From contig JAGOSA010000002.1 of the NCBI GenBank assembly GCA_018062505.1, forward strand, positions 11,948 to 52,445: 40,498 bases of DNA, given 5' to 3'. A program made the translations under genes and the position numbers. Origin of the DNA: Minisyncoccota bacterium (GTDB lineage Bacteria > Patescibacteriota > Minisyncoccia > Phycocordibacterales > UBA9973). Numbering within the stretch: position 1 is the stretch's first letter; each line of letters opens with the position of its first letter. The notes beneath the pieces are model-generated. The model worked only from the letters and a program-made list of their open reading frames with translations. It searched no databases and was not told the origin of the DNA. Positions 9,849 to 34,492 of the stretch are shown one piece after another.

Positions 9849-9891
9849 TTTAAGCGCTGATGAGAATTAAGAATATTGAGGACGATTTCCA

Positions 9892-9927
9892 CAATTAGCA
9901 ATCCCCTTAATCGGGGATTTCTAATTG
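9892..9927. repeat. Long palindrome upstream of speD
   Basis: CAATTAG-c-AATCCCC pairs with GGGGATT-t-CTAATTG around a 6-base loop, giving 14 paired bases with one mismatch. No T-run follows on either strand, so it is a poor terminator. Its right arm covers the place where the -35 box of speD would be (about 9918-9923), so it could be an operator. Confidence 0.6.
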
Positions 9928-9940
9928 CCCCATATTTGTA

Positions 9941-9946
9941 TATAAT
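9941..9946 (+). promoter_or_regulatory. -10 box of speD
   Basis: Perfect TATAAT with upstream TGTA, 10 bases before ATG 9957. Confidence 0.55.
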
Positions 9947-9956
9947 GCTTTCACAT

Positions 9957-10352
9957 ATGGAAACCACAAATTTCGGTGAGCATCTCACCATTGACGGCTA
10001 CGGCGGCGATTACGACAAGCTTAACGATAGGGAAGCGGTTCTGCGCACACTACAAGAATTGCCTGAGAAACTCGGCATGAAAGCATTGTCGGAAGCAGTT
10101 GTTTTCTCAGCGCCAGATAACGGCATCAAAGACCCAGGCGGCTGGAGCGGCTTTTTGGTTATCGCTGAAAGCCACATTGCAGTGCACACATTTCCAAAAC
10201 GGGGATTCGTCAGTGCCGACATCTACACATGTCGCAATGGCCTTGATCAAGCATTTGTCATCCAATACTTTAACGACATCTTTGGACTCAAAGACGTAGA
10301 AACTAACTTTATTATGAGGGGAACAAAGTACCCTGTAGAGAATATTCAGTAA
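9957..10352 (+). CDS. speD: S-adenosylmethionine decarboxylase proenzyme family (SpeD)
   Basis: 131 aa, the size of the short bacterial/archaeal form. The self-cleavage site is seen as ESHIAVHTFPKRG: Ser72 would become the pyruvoyl group, with His77 and a downstream Cys92 in the usual places. SpeD decarboxylates SAM to supply aminopropyl groups for spermidine. No spermidine synthase (speE) is next to it. Some SpeD homologues, including examples from reduced-genome bacteria, are reported to have become arginine or ornithine decarboxylases, so the substrate is open. An upstream in-frame ATG at 9945 overlaps the TATAAT box, which supports the start at 9957. Confidence 0.88.
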   Translation: METTNFGEHLTIDGYGGDYDKLNDREAVLRTLQELPEKLGMKALSEAVVFSAPDNGIKDPGGWSGFLVIAESHIAVHTFPKRGFVSADIYTCRNGLDQAFVIQYFNDIFGLKDVETNFIMRGTKYPVENIQ

Positions 10353-10411: not shown

Positions 10412-11350
10412 ATGAATCCTATCTTACTCGCTGCTGTTGTTGCACCATTACTCTATGCAACCGTTAACTATGTAGACAAATTTATTGTCGGCAAAGTTGC
10501 GACATCGAAGTCTGCTTGGTCATTCTTCGGTTTATTTTCTTTTATTATTGCAGGAATTATTGTTGGCGGACTTGCGATAGTAGGAACGTCGATACAATTG
10601 CCGGCACATAATGCACTTATGCTTATGGTAACTGGAATTTTCCAAGTATCGTGGGTCTATTTGTACTTCAAGGCATTAGAAGGGGAAGACACTTCAAGTG
10701 TTACTCCTTTATTCCAATTTATCGGCTTTTTTGCTTATATATTTGGGGTGTTGTTCTTGGGGGAAGTCCTTGCTGCGCCAAAACTGCTTGCACTTGCACT
10801 CATTTTGGTTGGAGGCGGCTTGCTGTCTTACGATCCTGGCAAAAAACTCGCTTTCAAAAAAGAAGCAGGTTACATGCTCCTTGCTTCAGCGATTATTGCA
10901 CTCGGTTTGGTTTTCTTTAAGAAATCGACAACCGATATTGCGTCATTCGACACTATAGGATTGACCGAATTCTTCATTTCATCTTTCTGGATGTATTTGG
11001 GAATGGGGGTAACAACTGTACTTGTACTTGTATGTGCTCCATCGGTACGCAATGACCTCTCTGTTATGCTCAAAAAAAACAGCGCAACAGTTTGGAAAGC
11101 TAATATCCTCAATGAAGTACTCAATGTGCTTGCAACCTTGTCAGTATCGTATGCACTCTTAAAAATTCCAGTTGCTACGGTGTCTGCGCTCCAGTCAGTG
11201 CAGGCATTCTATGTGCTCCTCATTGGTATTTTCGGGACAATGTTCTTGCCGAAATACATATCCGAGACATTTACTAAAAAATCAATCATTTACAAGGTGA
11301 TTGCCATCGGAATTATGGTCGCAGGGGGAATATTATTAGAAGTTCTCTAG
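10412..11350 (+). CDS. EamA/DMT family transporter
   Basis: 312 aa with about ten hydrophobic segments arranged as two similar five-helix halves, the layout of drug/metabolite transporters. YLYFKALEGEDTSSVTPLFQ in the first half and VSYALLKIPVATVSALQSVQ in the second are the matching family segments. The substrate cannot be predicted. It lies directly after speD, but with its own promoter and a terminator behind, so it is probably a separate unit. A role in polyamine movement would be speculation based only on position. Confidence 0.85.
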   Translation: MNPILLAAVVAPLLYATVNYVDKFIVGKVATSKSAWSFFGLFSFIIAGIIVGGLAIVGTSIQLPAHNALMLMVTGIFQVSWVYLYFKALEGEDTSSVTPLFQFIGFFAYIFGVLFLGEVLAAPKLLALALILVGGGLLSYDPGKKLAFKKEAGYMLLASAIIALGLVFFKKSTTDIASFDTIGLTEFFISSFWMYLGMGVTTVLVLVCAPSVRNDLSVMLKKNSATVWKANILNEVLNVLATLSVSYALLKIPVATVSALQSVQAFYVLLIGIFGTMFLPKYISETFTKKSIIYKVIAIGIMVAGGILLEVL

Positions 11351-11353
11351 TCT

Positions 11354-11379
11354 AAAGCCGCTTTCTCTAAGCGGCTTTT
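11354..11379 (+). terminator. Intrinsic terminator after the EamA gene
   Basis: AAAGCCGCTT-TCTCT-AAGCGGCTTT hairpin followed by T-rich sequence. Confidence 0.85.
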
Positions 11380-11407
11380 GTTATGTTCCTTTTATAGTAA
11401 ATTCATA

Positions 11408-11413
11408 TATAAT
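11408..11413 (+). promoter_or_regulatory. -10 box of the DUF2156 gene, leaderless
   Basis: Perfect TATAAT, 6 bases before ATG 11420. Confidence 0.6.
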
Positions 11414-11419
11414 AGCACC

Positions 11420-12340
11420 ATGATTCCAAACTTTCCGGATTTTAAGCCTATAGAGCTTAATGATAAGGACGAAATAGAGAGTTTTACTAAGAAGTTTGCC
11501 CCATACTCAGATTTTAACTTTGCCAGTATGTGGTCTTGGGATGTAAAAGAAGAAATGCGTGTTTCCCAGCTAAATGGAAACCTTGTTGTTCGTTTTACCG
11601 ACTACCTCACAGGAGAACCTTTCTATTCATTCTTGGGTTCTAATAAGCCAACCGAAACTGCCGATGCACTCCTTACTTTGGCAGAGAAAGAAGGCATTCC
11701 GCTTCACCTGAAACTGGTTCCTGAAGACTCAGCAAAAGAAATAGATCCGACTAGATTCAAGATTGAAGAAGACAGGGATCACTTTGACTACATTCTTGAT
11801 TGCGAAAAATTAATGAGCTACCCAGGACACGAGCTCCGTGGTCACGCTAGTTTCTATAGACGTTTTGTAGAAGAACATGGAGAAAAACTTGAAATAAAAG
11901 TTCTTGATATCGACAATCAGGATCACCAGAACGGAATACAGCTCCTCAATGCTATATGGGTGAACAATAAGAAGGATGAAGGCAAGGATCAGTTTACTGA
12001 TCTAAGTATTGAAGATTTAGCTATTAAAAAATTTCTCAATATCAATAAGGAATTTAAGCACCTCTTTTTGGTCGGGGTTTTTAATGGCGAGAATATGATC
12101 GCTTTCAGTATCAATGAAATAGGCGAAGGAGATGTTGCTACTTGCCATTTTATGAAGGCTAATAATACCTATAAAGGTATTTATTCATATTTATTTAGTG
12201 AGTGTGGAAAAATGCTTGCAAGCTATTCGAAGAAGTATGTTAATATTGAACAAGACCTAGGCCTCAAAAACCTTCGCCAGTCAAAAAAATCCTACGAACC
12301 CGCTCACTTCTTAAAGAAATACATTATTCAGCGAGTGTAA
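11420..12340 (+). CDS. DUF2156 / phosphatidylglycerol lysyltransferase C-terminal-like protein
   Basis: 306 aa, soluble. The overall plan fits the double-GNAT fold of DUF2156 and of the cytosolic domain of aminoacyl-phosphatidylglycerol synthases. It opens with an N-terminal part reading MIPNFPDFKPIEL, followed by FNFASMWSWD. YRRFVEEHGEKLEIKVL lies in the middle. The end has the typical VNIEQDLGLKNLRQSKKSYEPAHFLKKY. No flippase membrane domain precedes it. Family members with that domain move an amino acid from tRNA to lipid; lone domains have unknown acceptors. The start at 11420 is supported by TATAAT 6 bases before; an earlier in-frame ATG at 11378 lies before this box. Confidence 0.75.
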   Translation: MIPNFPDFKPIELNDKDEIESFTKKFAPYSDFNFASMWSWDVKEEMRVSQLNGNLVVRFTDYLTGEPFYSFLGSNKPTETADALLTLAEKEGIPLHLKLVPEDSAKEIDPTRFKIEEDRDHFDYILDCEKLMSYPGHELRGHASFYRRFVEEHGEKLEIKVLDIDNQDHQNGIQLLNAIWVNNKKDEGKDQFTDLSIEDLAIKKFLNINKEFKHLFLVGVFNGENMIAFSINEIGEGDVATCHFMKANNTYKGIYSYLFSECGKMLASYSKKYVNIEQDLGLKNLRQSKKSYEPAHFLKKYIIQRV

Positions 12341-12361: not shown

Positions 12362-13189
12362 ATGAAACCCTCTCCAAATAAAAGCAAGATAGCATTCACT
12401 ATATCAACTATTCTTTTCTTGGCCTTTACTGCATGGTGGCTGTACATCAAGCAGTTTGATATTGATGCAACACGAGACATGCGTCAGCTTTGGGGTGCAA
12501 CATACCAAATAATAGCTCTTTTTGGCGCTATCGTAGGTTTCGTTATTTCAAAGAGATGGGGAGGTTATAAAAGCATGCTCGGAAGGGCGATTATGGCATT
12601 TGCAGTTGGACTATTGTTGCAATCATTTGGCCAAACTTACAGTAGCTATTACGTATATTCTCACCACGTTGAGTCTCCAATCTACCCAGGAATAGGTGAT
12701 GTTGGTTTTTTTGGTAGTGTAATCGCATATATATATGGCATCATTGCCTTGTCAAAAATTAGCGGCATTCGAGTTTCGCTTAAGAAAATGCAGAACAAAG
12801 CTTGGGCACTTATTATCCCAGTTGCCATACTTGTCGGTTCTTATATGTTCTATCTAAAAGGGTATGAATTCGACTGGTCAGACAAAATTAAGGTTTTTCT
12901 TGATTTCGGGTATCCGCTCGGCCAGGCATTTTATATGTCTATTGGTATTCTTGCTCTCATTTTGAGCCGCAACGTCCTCGGGGGAATAATGAAAAAACCG
13001 ATCCTTTTCTTGATTATTGCTTTGCTTTTCCAGTATTTCTCCGATTTCTTTTTCCTATACGAGGCGAACCTCGGCGTATGGTATGTCGGCAATATTAATG
13101 ACTTCTTATATTCTGCATCTTATTTCCTTATGTCAATCAGTCTCATTCAATTTAGTGTAGCTTTTCATCGTATTAGGAGCACAGAATAA
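12362..13189 (+). CDS. Eight-helix membrane protein, possible sensor module
   Basis: 275 aa with eight predicted membrane segments (about residues 9-29, 43-64, 71-95, 109-132, 147-168, 178-203, 212-235, 245-272). The segments IYPGIGDVGFFGSVIAYIYG and FGYPLGQAFYMSIGILALIL resemble membrane sensor modules usually fused in front of kinase or GGDEF domains. Here there is no fused output domain. A 94-aa protein starts 3 bases later and a soluble histidine kinase 5 bases after that. My reading is that this is the membrane input part of a sensor encoded as separate chains. The ligand is unknown. Confidence 0.65.
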   Translation: MKPSPNKSKIAFTISTILFLAFTAWWLYIKQFDIDATRDMRQLWGATYQIIALFGAIVGFVISKRWGGYKSMLGRAIMAFAVGLLLQSFGQTYSSYYVYSHHVESPIYPGIGDVGFFGSVIAYIYGIIALSKISGIRVSLKKMQNKAWALIIPVAILVGSYMFYLKGYEFDWSDKIKVFLDFGYPLGQAFYMSIGILALILSRNVLGGIMKKPILFLIIALLFQYFSDFFFLYEANLGVWYVGNINDFLYSASYFLMSISLIQFSVAFHRIRSTE

Positions 13190-13192
13190 TTT

Positions 13193-13477
13193 ATGACAAC
13201 AGCATTTGATTTAATTTCACAAAGAATCATCAAGGAACAAGAGCTTATTATTGGTCCTATGGCTTGGGAAGAAGCACGCAAGGTAAATGGCCTAAGCGTT
13301 GTTGACACTAAACAAGGAGTAATTTCAATCATGGGCGACGGCAAGCAGATTGTCGACGCGCTCGTTTCTCGCTACGTCAAACTATTTGGCAAAGCTTCAC
13401 AAGAAGCATGTAAAGAATCTGTGCAAGACCTTCTCGCAGACATGAAAGCAGAAGACGTACCAGCAATGCTCAAATAA
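13193..13477 (+). CDS. Small soluble protein between membrane sensor and kinase, 94 aa
   Basis: I do not recognise the family. It is predicted soluble and mixed alpha/beta, with hydrophobic strand-like segments GLSVVDTKQGVISIMG and helices at both ends. It starts 3 bases after the membrane protein stop and ends 5 bases before the kinase start. This spacing makes co-translation and a shared function likely, for instance as an adaptor. No histidine-phosphotransfer or receiver motif is present: there is no conserved His and no acidic pocket. Confidence 0.7.
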   Translation: MTTAFDLISQRIIKEQELIIGPMAWEEARKVNGLSVVDTKQGVISIMGDGKQIVDALVSRYVKLFGKASQEACKESVQDLLADMKAEDVPAMLK

Positions 13478-13482
13478 TAGCT

Positions 13483-14856
13483 ATGGATACTGAAGAAACT
13501 AAAGTTGAAAAAACTGACGCTACACTTCAGCATCTCAACGAGGACCTATACAAACACAATCTTGAGCTTGCCATGGTCAACAAGACTTTGTCGCTTTTGC
13601 GTAAGCTCTACCAGATCAGCTTGCTCGAGCTTGATCCGGTTACACTCGCCAATAAAGTTTCAGATACAGTCCGCGTCGACTTCAACCTCGAAATTGCCGG
13701 TATTTTTGTGTATGACAAAAAGAAAGACTTGCTTGAGCCACTCCACTTTTCAAAATCAGAAAGGCTTTTGGCTTCAGTCGAGAAAACAGATTTTCATTTT
13801 AAGGATGCAATGATTTTTAATGTTTCCAAAAATACTTTTTTTGATAAGCTGGTAAAATTCAGTAACCCTATCATGACAAAAGACATCAATGATGTCTGGG
13901 GCGGCGTTATTCCAAGCGACAAGCTTGAAACTGTTCGCAAAGAGTCGAACCTTAAAACTATTTTGCTTTTTCCGCTCGTCACTCAAAACAAGACAATTGG
14001 TGTTCTGTTGCTTGGCTTCAATCGTCCATACGAAGCACTTTCTGAATTTGAGCAAGAAGCGATGAAGAGCGTCACGGACGTTGCTGCTGTCGCTCTCGAC
14101 AAAGCGTACTTGTACCGCGAGCTCGCTGACGCTAATCTCAAACTTGAAGAAGTCGACAAGCGAAAGACTGAATTCCTCTCACTTGCGTCTCACCAGCTCC
14201 GCAGTCCGATTACGGCAATCAAAGGCTATACGTCCATGGTTCTTGAAGGTTCATATGGCGATGTTACAGAATCGCAGCGCGAGCCGATCAGTCGCGTTTT
14301 CCAGTCGAGCCTCAACCTCGCAAACGTTGTTGAAGACTTGCTTGATGTTGCCAAAATCGAACAAGGCGGAATGAAGTACGTCATGCAAGATGCTGATCTT
14401 GAAATGATTACATCGGCCCTCAACAAAGAATTTTCTCTTACTGCAAAGAGTAAGGGACTTGAGCTGCAGTATGAAAATGCTGGCGCGTCGCCGTGCATGG
14501 TCAGCATCGATCCAGTTAAGTTCCGTCAGGTTATTTTGAATTTGCTCGATAATTCGATCAAGTACACTGAAAAAGGTTTCGTTAAGCTTTCTATAAAAAA
14601 AGATGGCACAAATGCCATGATTGTCATCAGTGACTCAGGCATGGGAATGTCTCCCGAAACGCAGGCTAAACTGTTCGGCAAATTCAGTCGCGGCGAAGGC
14701 ACAAAAGTAAATGCCGGCGGTTCCGGTATTGGACTCTATTTAGTTAAGGAAATTGTCGAAGCTCACGGCGGCACTGTTTCTGCAGAATCTGCAGGGGTAG
14801 GGAAGGGATCTGTGTTTACAGTAAAGATTCCGCTTAAGACAGAGGCGAAAGCCTAG
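13483..14856 (+). CDS. GAF-domain sensor histidine kinase without membrane segments
   Basis: 457 aa. A short coiled coil (about 15-40) leads to a GAF domain (about 45-210), a helical linker (210-230), then the HisKA domain with FLSLASHQLRSPITAIKGY (phospho-accepting His237), N-box NLLDNSIKYT (Asn357), G1 DSGMGM (384-389) and G2 GGSGIGL (412-418). All catalytic boxes are intact. It has no transmembrane helix, so input may come from the GAF ligand or from the eight-helix protein two genes upstream. No response regulator is adjacent. The 3' end overlaps the 3' end of cysS by 23 bases on the opposite strand. Confidence 0.92.
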   Translation: MDTEETKVEKTDATLQHLNEDLYKHNLELAMVNKTLSLLRKLYQISLLELDPVTLANKVSDTVRVDFNLEIAGIFVYDKKKDLLEPLHFSKSERLLASVEKTDFHFKDAMIFNVSKNTFFDKLVKFSNPIMTKDINDVWGGVIPSDKLETVRKESNLKTILLFPLVTQNKTIGVLLLGFNRPYEALSEFEQEAMKSVTDVAAVALDKAYLYRELADANLKLEEVDKRKTEFLSLASHQLRSPITAIKGYTSMVLEGSYGDVTESQREPISRVFQSSLNLANVVEDLLDVAKIEQGGMKYVMQDADLEMITSALNKEFSLTAKSKGLELQYENAGASPCMVSIDPVKFRQVILNLLDNSIKYTEKGFVKLSIKKDGTNAMIVISDSGMGMSPETQAKLFGKFSRGEGTKVNAGGSGIGLYLVKEIVEAHGGTVSAESAGVGKGSVFTVKIPLKTEAKA

Positions 14857-32763: not shown

Positions 32764-33879
32764 TCAGTTACTATTGTAATTAAGTAAAGATGAAGGAATT
32801 CTAAAGATCAAAGATGTTCCTTTGCCGACTTCGCTTTTGACAGTGACAGTACCGTCGATTTTGTCGAGGGCTGCCTTAACAATAGAGAGACCAAGTCCGC
32901 TGCCGCCAGTCTGGCGAGAACGGCTCTTGTCCGCACGGTAGAAGCGCTCAAATACTTTTTCTGTATCTTCTTCGCTCATGCCGATGCCTGTATCAGTGAC
33001 TGTAATAATCACAGCTCCCGAGCTTTCTTCTTTCTCGAGCTTTGTCATAACAGTTCCGTTCGGCTTGTTGTAGTTGATGCCATTTTTGACGGCATTGAGG
33101 AGAATTGCTTCGACGAGAGATTCATTGCTCGAAAGCATAATATCTTCTTTCGGCAATTCGCAAGCGAGATTGATGCTGTTTGCTTTTGCCACGATAGCAA
33201 GGCGCTCGTTTGTTTTGACAACGAGCTGATTGATGTTGAAAGGCGCCATGGTTACAGGAGAGGCAGTGCCGTCTTCAGACATTCGCGAAAGAGTGAGCAA
33301 GTCGCTAATGATCCGGCTCATGCGATCGACTTCTTCGAGATTGCTTTCAACATGCTTTGCGTTTGCAGAGGTTGCATGTCCTTTGCCTTTCTGCTCAGAT
33401 AATTGATTTTCTAGTTCCGTTTTGAGAATGCTGAGCGGCGTGCGAAGTTCATGCGAAGCGTCGCTCAAAAATCTTTTTTCGCGCATATACGATTGCTTGA
33501 GAGGGGAGAGCGTCCACTCGGCGAGTTTGTAGCTAAGGCCTCCAGCGATCAGCAACAGGAATCCGTTTACTAAAAACAGCAAATTAACGAGGTCTTCGCG
33601 AACATCGTCAGGTGTCGGATAACCAGAAGGGTAGTTTGGACGCACAATGCGGTCGCTTGCTTCAATTTCGCCGATTATTTGCCCACCAACAATAGCTGGT
33701 CCGCGGAATCTTGTTTCAAGTCGCGCTGAAAAAACCGAATAGAGAACGCTACTCGACACAAAGAGAATGCCGCCAAGAATAATGACGTAGATAAACGTCA
33801 GCTTAATAATCGAATGGCTAAGCCGTTTATCAAACGAGCTGATATCCTTTGCCCCAGACTGTCTTGATCCTTCTTGCAT
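32764..33879 (-). CDS. Membrane sensor histidine kinase
   Basis: 371 aa. Two membrane helices (about 27-49 and 98-118) enclose a short outer domain of about 48 residues. There is no clear HAMP; the linker reads AEWTLSPLKQSYMREKRFLSD. The HisKA box DASHELRTPLS has phospho-accepting His143. The ATPase domain has N-box NAVKNGINYN, G1 DTGIGM and G2 GGSGLGLSIVKAAL. It overlaps the end of the response regulator gene by 50 bases and ends in TGA. It is an OmpR/PhoB-class kinase; the signal is unknown. Confidence 0.93.
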   Translation of the reverse strand: MQEGSRQSGAKDISSFDKRLSHSIIKLTFIYVIILGGILFVSSSVLYSVFSARLETRFRGPAIVGGQIIGEIEASDRIVRPNYPSGYPTPDDVREDLVNLLFLVNGFLLLIAGGLSYKLAEWTLSPLKQSYMREKRFLSDASHELRTPLSILKTELENQLSEQKGKGHATSANAKHVESNLEEVDRMSRIISDLLTLSRMSEDGTASPVTMAPFNINQLVVKTNERLAIVAKANSINLACELPKEDIMLSSNESLVEAILLNAVKNGINYNKPNGTVMTKLEKEESSGAVIITVTDTGIGMSEEDTEKVFERFYRADKSRSRQTGGSGLGLSIVKAALDKIDGTVTVKSEVGKGTSLIFRIPSSLLNYNSN

Positions 33880-34492
33880 ATTTGTATGGTAATTTCTTTC
33901 TTAGATTCTTGAGGTGAACGTCGACCACATTACTGAAGAGGTCGTGGAATTTATCCCAGACATGTTCGAGTATATCATCTCGAGTAACAACTGCGCCCTT
34001 GTTGCGGAGGAAAAATTCGAGCATGCCATATTCGCGAAGCGTGAGGTCGACGGGCTGTTCGGCAATCGAAACATTTTGCGTTTTGGTATCGAGCACTAGT
34101 TCGTCGAGAACAAGAATGTCGCTCGTCGAAATAACCGGACGTCTCATGAGTGCGCGGATGCGAGCTACAAGCTCGTCGAATGAAAATGGCTTAACCAAAT
34201 AGTCGTCCGCACCAACATCTAGTCCCAGAATCTTTTCGTCTGTTTCATCTTTTGCTGTCAGGAAAATGATCGGCGTCTTGTAGCCTTGCAAACGAAGGTT
34301 GCGGCAAACCGCAATGCCGTCGCGCTTTGGCATCATGACATCGAGCACAATCAGGTCGTAATTGCCGTATTTTGCGAGCTGTTCGCCCACTTCTCCGTCA
34401 AAGGCAAAGTCTACGGCATATCCGCGTTTCTGGAGGCCTTCTACGAGGTTCTTATTGAGTTTTGGTTCGTCTTCTACTACTAATATTTTCAT
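33830..34492 (-). CDS. OmpR/PhoB family response regulator
   Basis: 220 aa. The receiver domain has an acidic pocket near residues 7-9 (EDE), phospho-acceptor Asp51 in VLDVMMP, Thr79 and Lys101 in DDYLVKPF. The C-terminal winged helix (about 125-220) carries DLTLREYGMLEFFLRNKG and VDVHLKNLRKKL as recognition helix, and ends GKGYQLV. It is a DNA-binding transcription factor. First gene of the unit with the kinase and probably the secreted Met/His-rich protein. A TATACT box lies 8 bases before the ATG. Confidence 0.95.
   Translation of the reverse strand: MKILVVEDEPKLNKNLVEGLQKRGYAVDFAFDGEVGEQLAKYGNYDLIVLDVMMPKRDGIAVCRNLRLQGYKTPIIFLTAKDETDEKILGLDVGADDYLVKPFSFDELVARIRALMRRPVISTSDILVLDELVLDTKTQNVSIAEQPVDLTLREYGMLEFFLRNKGAVVTRDDILEHVWDKFHDLFSNVVDVHLKNLRKKLPYKYARRIKTVWGKGYQLV

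Follow-up and report, generated by a model that had tools for sequence, protein, structure and literature searches.

A membrane protein, a STAC-like small protein, and a soluble histidine kinase as a putative three-part receptor in Patescibacteria

RESULTS

The window, i.e., the whole 40,498-nt stretch of DNA analyzed here, belongs to a 671-kb genome that is about 80% complete. It carries three consecutive genes on the plus strand, separated by 3 and 5 bases as the initial annotation had described; we refer to their products as MEM, P94, and HK and to the three together as the triad. The features considered are as follows.

9876-10352, plus strand: S-adenosylmethionine-decarboxylase-family (AdoMetDC-family) gene (Pfam)
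10412-11350, plus strand: EamA-family transporter (Pfam), with a homologue in 10 of the 61 triad loci described below
11378-12340, plus strand: LPG_synthase_C-domain protein (Pfam), 21 bases upstream of MEM
12362-13189, plus strand: MEM, open reading frame (ORF) of 275 aa, 8-TM membrane protein
13193-13477, plus strand: P94, ORF of 94 aa, putative STAC-like cytosolic connector
13483-14856, plus strand: HK, ORF of 457 aa, soluble GAF histidine kinase
13525-13572, plus strand: HK N-terminal helix motif (LQHLNEDLYKHNLELA), proposed P94 docking site
13633-14100, plus strand: HK GAF domain (Pfam, below cutoff)
14164-14838, plus strand: HK HisKA and HATPase_c domains (Pfam)
32764-34492, minus strand: separate response-regulator/histidine-kinase pair, overlapping genes

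The eight helices assigned to MEM from its letters were recovered in its structural model (mean pLDDT, 92), and HK is, as had been proposed, a kinase with an output half and no membrane part: HisKA (52.6 bits; cutoff, 26.9) and HATPase_c (96.3 bits; cutoff, 26.4) are recognized by Pfam, three GAF models score 1.5 to 2.4 bits under their cutoff, and no TM segment was found by hydropathy. The closest relatives by P94 are "Candidatus Nomurabacteria" of the Patescibacteria.

P94 matches were found in 16 of 100 relatives, and the MEM-P94-HK order is preserved at the ten closest P94 loci, the window included, with the exception of one MEM cut by a contig end and one locus with an extra ORF before an HK of 745 aa and 9 TM segments. 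A sample of named genomes gave 61 Patescibacteria loci holding 62 P94 genes and spanning Nomura-, Staskawicz-, Kaiser-, Uhr-, Andersen-, Roizman-, and Saccharibacteria, among others. There, MEM lies directly upstream of 57 of the 62 P94 genes, with gaps of -32 to +26 nt; of the remaining P94 genes, three have a divergent MEM 0.5 to 1 kb away, one belongs to a stretch lacking MEM, and one is an extra copy that has no MEM of its own. HK is found within 150 nt for 45 of the 60 P94 genes having more than 700 nt of room, and the other 15 have no HK within that distance. The kinase lies 0.9 to 4.5 kb downstream of P94 in L134, L146, L161, L170, and L175, and L182 holds an HK fragment only; an ORF apparently joining P94 and HK in L182 crosses unknown bases and was rejected as a fusion. 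The triad is fully contiguous in 41 of the 61 loci.

Surveyed from the membrane protein side, a phylum-wide sample of 286 genomes has 22 with MEM, and P94 is adjacent or fused in 18 of the 20 MEM loci retrieved from these, the other two having a divergent P94 at 1.7 kb and a partial P94 match at 3.6 kb. Within the order, MEM is present in 21 of 397 genomes: all 13 with MEM at E < 1e-90 have P94 adjacent or fused, and no P94 was found in the other eight, whose MEM is weaker, three of them (one genus) having no adjacent HK either. Moreover, MEM and P94 form a single ORF in two genomes distant from each other, L062 of the same order and L222 of another class of the phylum (378 and 381 aa). Altogether, comparative genomics supports the view that MEM, P94, and HK form one unit. 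Two of the checks suggested with the initial annotation, conservation of the neighborhood and a search for fused parts, turned out in favor of its proposal, and the gene order, which recurs across the phylum, is not a matter of chance.

The AlphaFold2 model of P94 (58 rows; pLDDT, 96) has helices at residues 4 to 20 and 23 to 29, strands at 34 to 38 and 43 to 46, and helices at 50 to 65, 67 to 76, and 78 to 82, i.e., two helix pairs plus a short helix, with a linker of about 20 residues including the two strands. In the STAC domain, two alpha hairpins joined by a nine-residue linker make up a four-helix bundle, and its hallmark, according to the accessible part of PMC4834066, is an LGPx(x)A motif that connects helices 1 and 2. 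The initial annotation credited the 94-aa protein with no known motif, which has to be corrected: the P94 of the window has IGPMA at residues 20 to 24, between helices 4-20 and 23-29, and [LIV]GPx(x)A is present in 57 of 58 triad P94s and in 25 of 30 members of a distant P94 group. In structural comparison, 65 of 69 residues of the solved STAC protein Af1502 (5A1Q) were aligned with P94 (Z, 5.1; rmsd, 3.0 Å; rank 12), H-NOX/soluble guanylate cyclase chains reached Z values of 2.5 to 6.1 at about 4 Å, and the top row was a designed protein (Z, 6.6), all of these scores lying below the level that shows kinship. The setting of P94 fits that of STAC proteins, either stand-alone beside a membrane receptor or as a connector between membrane and two-component parts. 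Profile comparison by hhalign with a 10-sequence SLC5/STAC alignment gave no relatedness (E, 0.43, 0.59, and 0.47), and because the profiles of these ten domains gave nothing, P94 is not filed here as a STAC member; it is STAC-like and may work like STAC. The P94 rows matched no Pfam family at E 1e-3, apart from scattered matches of single or few members, a silence that means little since RpuS, although a known SLC5/STAC kinase, has no Pfam match in its STAC region either. In NCBIfam, P0001 and P0002 scored far under the cutoffs, and the PDB sequence search gave two designed armadillo-repeat proteins (E, 5e-4; no stretch passing alone) and nothing else credible; absence from these family and PDB lists excludes no family. 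The window P94 was not found in viral contigs nor one distant P94 in plasmids, and a whole-word literature search found no publication joining STAC terms with Patescibacteria.

In MEM, inner loops average 2.2 to 4.0 K+R versus 0.3 to 0.7 for outer loops, one outer loop having 1.9 (47 rows), so that both ends are predicted to be cytosolic. Its conserved residues are Y108, P109, D113, D228, and D247; the three aspartate positions are acidic in 98 to 100% of the 47 rows and are predicted to face outward, close to conserved aromatic residues. MEM itself had one subthreshold Pfam match only, and no MEM row matched a Pfam family at E 1e-3, with scattered matches of single or few members. Having no SSF (SLC5) match at E 1 and being encoded apart from the kinase, it is not part of an SLC5/STAC histidine kinase. 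In structure, it comes closest to the bundles of 7TM receptors and rhodopsins, with which it shares a common arrangement only: a rhodopsin or G protein-coupled receptor was rejected, as the best Foldseek E value was 0.056 and the best Z of about 12 is at the level that helical models reach. Microbial rhodopsins conserve a retinal-binding lysine in their last helix, and this identity was likewise rejected, no position having Lys in at least 80% of the 47 rows. A MEM-P94 read-through model (pLDDT, 92; pTM, 0.85) has a continuous helix at residues 245 to 297; as the two chains are linked in it by two residues, neither the helix nor the pTM is proof of contact.

A helix motif, ELYKxNxELA, lies within the first 120 residues of 44 of the 45 P94-adjacent HKs, the 45th having been called without its N terminus. 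The motif profile (A6) matches 13 of the 397 order genomes, the same 13 that have P94 and MEM at E < 1e-90, bearing in mind that it was built from such kinases and is biased towards them. In other classes, the motif is kept in 12 of the 13 HKs examined and is absent from that of L220. Among the other-class HKs scanned, six have PAS in place of GAF (four above the Pfam cutoff), those of L223 and L217 have neither, and that of L220 has GAF. Eleven of the 45 P94-adjacent HKs are only 271 to 290 aa long and match neither GAF nor PAS at E 0.01; the input to P94-adjacent HKs therefore probably comes in trans. All of these short kinases (L136, L143, L144, L148, L150, L152, L153, L157, L166, L168, and L180) have HATPase_c above cutoff. 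Pfam recognizes HisKA only in L136; the other ten keep, by eye, a histidine in an atypical context, and because of this missing HisKA match the phosphoacceptor half of the ten is, judged on sequence, atypical.

Two MEM types can be distinguished, with 26 and 24 of the 50 usable rows from the 61 loci and 29% identity between them. An LPG_synthase_C homologue lies near 19 of the 24 type-2 MEMs versus none of the 26 of type 1. On the HK tree, a minimum of 8 changes of MEM type is needed, fewer than in any of 200 shuffles (9 to 17). On the P94 tree, the minimum is 14, scarcely below the shuffles (13 to 21; 28 of 200 as low); P94 is a short protein with a weak tree. Across 27 loci, P94 and HK pairwise distances correlate (r = 0.57), and those of MEM track neither P94 (r = 0.05) nor HK (r = 0.06); distance correlation thus failed to give MEM-P94 coevolution. 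We read this as an exchangeable MEM input on a P94-HK core, with apparent swapping of subtypes, which, together with the distances, argues against a tightly coevolved MEM-P94 surface.

Profile comparison links the triad P94s to the distant group (E, 1e-14; L026 to L031, L069, and L078 to L100). In 29 of 30 distant loci, P94 is followed by a kinase of 579 to 594 aa with an N-terminal TM segment, the contig ending in L094, and the six such kinases that were read have a TM-GAF-PAS-kinase look. A homologous small protein (113 to 195 aa; 2 to 5 TM segments) stands beside P94 in 21 of the 30 (directly before P94 in 13, separating P94 from the kinase in 7, and overlapping in 1), and a response regulator is present in 27 of the 30 stretches. 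A P94-like domain also ends bitopic proteins with an extracytoplasmic part at six loci of five genomes:

L063:3089-4048, bitopic P94-like protein
L064:3408-4352, bitopic P94-like protein
L065:3603-4910, bitopic P94-like protein
L066:2134-3531, bitopic P94-like protein
L067:3629-4585, bitopic P94-like protein
L068:4160-5503, bitopic P94-like protein

Their extracytoplasmic region has a recurring "VAPGE-LPISVKL," with one TM segment near the end, and PAS-like and histidine-kinase genes are near four of the six (L063, L066, L067, and L068). Because distant P94s adjoin other membrane proteins and kinases, the combination of membrane protein, P94, and kinase recurs with unrelated membrane parts, and P94 looks like a reusable coupler.

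Polyamine-synthesis genes were found in 28 of the 61 triad loci (622 kb), versus none in two controls, 31 distant-P94 loci (259 kb) and nine MEM-without-P94 loci (76 kb). The difference from the distant-P94 loci has a Fisher p of 7e-7, to be read in the light of queries picked from triad loci after the neighborhood survey and of related species that are not independent. By kind, they are pyruvoyl arginine decarboxylase (9), AdoMet-decarboxylase family (9), ornithine/DAP/arginine decarboxylase (6), and agmatinase (4); the AdoMetDC family of candidate-phyla bacteria can include ornithine and arginine decarboxylases, according to the portion of PMC10407285 consulted. The decarboxylase gene ends 4 to 34 bases before MEM in L136, L154, L162, and L166 and overlaps it in L145. 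A second triad set, which overlaps the 61, has a polyamine gene in 9 of 18 loci. Polyamine sensing by MEM may thus be hypothesized, the link being one of gene neighborhood only, and, with the outward-facing aspartates of MEM, a polycation ligand is plausible. The triad has another recurrent neighbor, of about 200 aa and apparently a membrane protein (L161:536-1237), with homologues in 19 of the 61 triad loci and no Pfam family at E 1e-3.

No receiver gene adjoins the triad in the window. Four receiver hits were obtained in the genome; the one closest to the triad belongs to the separate pair at 32764-34492, and two are near other kinases. Likewise, a CheY-like gene is present in the fetched stretch of 4 of the 61 triad loci, never directly after HK. 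In other classes, L217, L220, L223, and L225 have a CheY-like regulator of 127 to 156 aa directly after or overlapping HK, and because of these adjoining regulators a single-domain receiver is a likely output of the triad. Hence, the initial statement that no response regulator is adjacent and that the output is distant holds for the window but not for these four loci. In the same genome, an orphan 131-aa CheY-like protein is encoded between pilB- and pilT-type genes (L121:376-3263). It was tried as the HK partner, but among the 397 order genomes, 283 have a homologue at E 1e-20, as do 11 of the 13 with the triad (Fisher p, 0.36), and with homologues this widespread, no specific link to the triad is shown. 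It is kept as the best local output candidate, with a distribution that shows no link to the triad. A degenerate receiver beside a dnaX-like gene was no better.

DISCUSSION

We propose that MEM, P94, and HK are a two-component receptor split into three polypeptides, a reading that we hold to be probable; for the parts and for their co-occurrence, support is good. The input would be MEM, a receptor with eight TM helices and with conserved acidic residues facing outward. Beneath the membrane, P94 would lie against the cytosolic end of MEM and pass the conformational signal of MEM on to HK. The kinase would be held and controlled via its N-terminal helix, ELYKxNxELA, followed by GAF, by PAS, or directly by the catalytic half. 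HK may then phosphorylate a CheY-like receiver encoded elsewhere, and the natural input is possibly linked to polyamines. Weighing against this reading are MEM distances that follow neither P94 nor HK, the P94 genes lacking a kinase within 150 nt, the order genomes that have MEM but no P94, the atypical phosphoacceptor half of ten short kinases, and the L220 kinase lacking the motif. The initial suggestion of an undescribed three-part sensor stands for the split into input, coupler, and output, to which synteny, the two fusions, and the motif (13 of 13) testify, but P94 is STAC-like and such connectors are known from SLC5/STAC kinases. A wider, joint reading, to which we give somewhat less than even chances, is that in Patescibacteria a STAC-like soluble domain is the common plug between interchangeable membrane receptors (two swapped 8-TM MEM subtypes, small 2- to 5-TM proteins, and bitopic sensors) and separate histidine kinases, that the kinase of the MEM system recognizes this plug via a dedicated N-terminal docking helix, and that MEM senses extracellular polyamines.

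The correlated P94 and HK distances, with MEM following neither, and the distant P94s adjoining kinases with their own N-terminal TM segment would also suit a P94 that is a soluble modulator of HK (an inhibitor or phosphatase switch), MEM being a separate, coregulated protein and no chain leading from membrane to kinase. This seems unlikely to us, since in gene order P94 is more tightly linked to MEM than to HK (57 of 62 versus 45 of 60), MEM and P94 are fused in two genomes, and P94-like domains follow a TM helix in the bitopic proteins. Slightly less credit still goes to a reversed flow, in which MEM is transporter-like and P94 and HK regulate or report transport: the polyamine and EamA-transporter genes nearby and a proposal, in the available part of PMC4834066, that STAC regulates solute transport speak for it; against it, MEM matches no transporter family at E 1e-3 and best resembles 7TM receptor and rhodopsin bundles, if in common arrangement only.

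Several H-NOX/soluble guanylate cyclase chains score slightly above 5A1Q (Z, 5.2 to 6.1 at about 4 Å, versus 5.1 at 3.0 Å), which would suit a P94 that is not STAC-like but left over from the N-terminal part of an H-NOX-type protein. The H-NOX domain comprises about 180 aa with a heme-binding half. P94, however, is half as long as stand-alone H-NOX chains (94 versus 182 to 189 aa), covers 5A1Q almost end to end at a lower rmsd, and has the STAC hallmark as its motif, and other H-NOX chains reach only Z 2.5 to 3.9; such an origin is therefore highly improbable.

CheW is a small soluble adaptor through which chemoreceptors in the membrane act in trans on CheA, a soluble histidine kinase. The proposed triad would resemble it in arrangement, and its kinase, unlike CheA, is of the HisKA type. 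Further parallels are the STAC proteins (Af1502/5A1Q and the kinases CbrA, CrbS, and RpuS). Like P94, the STAC domain is small and made of helices; it either stands alone or lies between a histidine kinase and a polytopic membrane domain, carries a motif of the LGPx(x)A type where helices 1 and 2 join, and has a fold that may resemble the one predicted for P94. The linker differs (about 20 residues with two strands in P94 versus nine residues in STAC), and, unlike in SLC5/STAC kinases, MEM is not SLC5, the kinase is on its own polypeptide, and P94 has no profile similarity to the ten domains compared. In CbrA, the STAC domain docks beneath the membrane domain, as stated in the part of PMC13022988 at hand. 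Af1503-type archaeal receptors, as far as the accessible text of PMC4834066 covers them, also pair an effector-less membrane receptor with a neighboring stand-alone STAC protein of 60 to 90 aa; Af1503 has a HAMP domain, whereas the triad has an 8-TM receptor plus a kinase with its own N-terminal motif.

Membrane-bound histidine kinases usually signal via one continuous helix chain. In the proposed receptor, this chain would be cut twice, with a small domain between the cuts, natural P94s being found unattached as well as fused to the membrane part and some kinases being reduced to a putative docking helix and the catalytic half. Such a split would make the function of STAC-type connectors directly testable, as the passage of a signal through a detachable middle piece, and offers a modular receptor design. 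It also suggests what some of the streamlined Patescibacteria, tiny and mostly uncultured, may sense, possibly polyamines.

MEM relatives occur in further settings. In some of the eight order genomes that have MEM but no P94 (L113, L114, L116, and L117), a divergent MEM lies beside or overlaps soluble kinases of 521 to 668 aa, whose N-terminal halves are uncharacterized, and in L133, L135, L141, and L183, a second MEM relative lies a few kilobases upstream of the triad.
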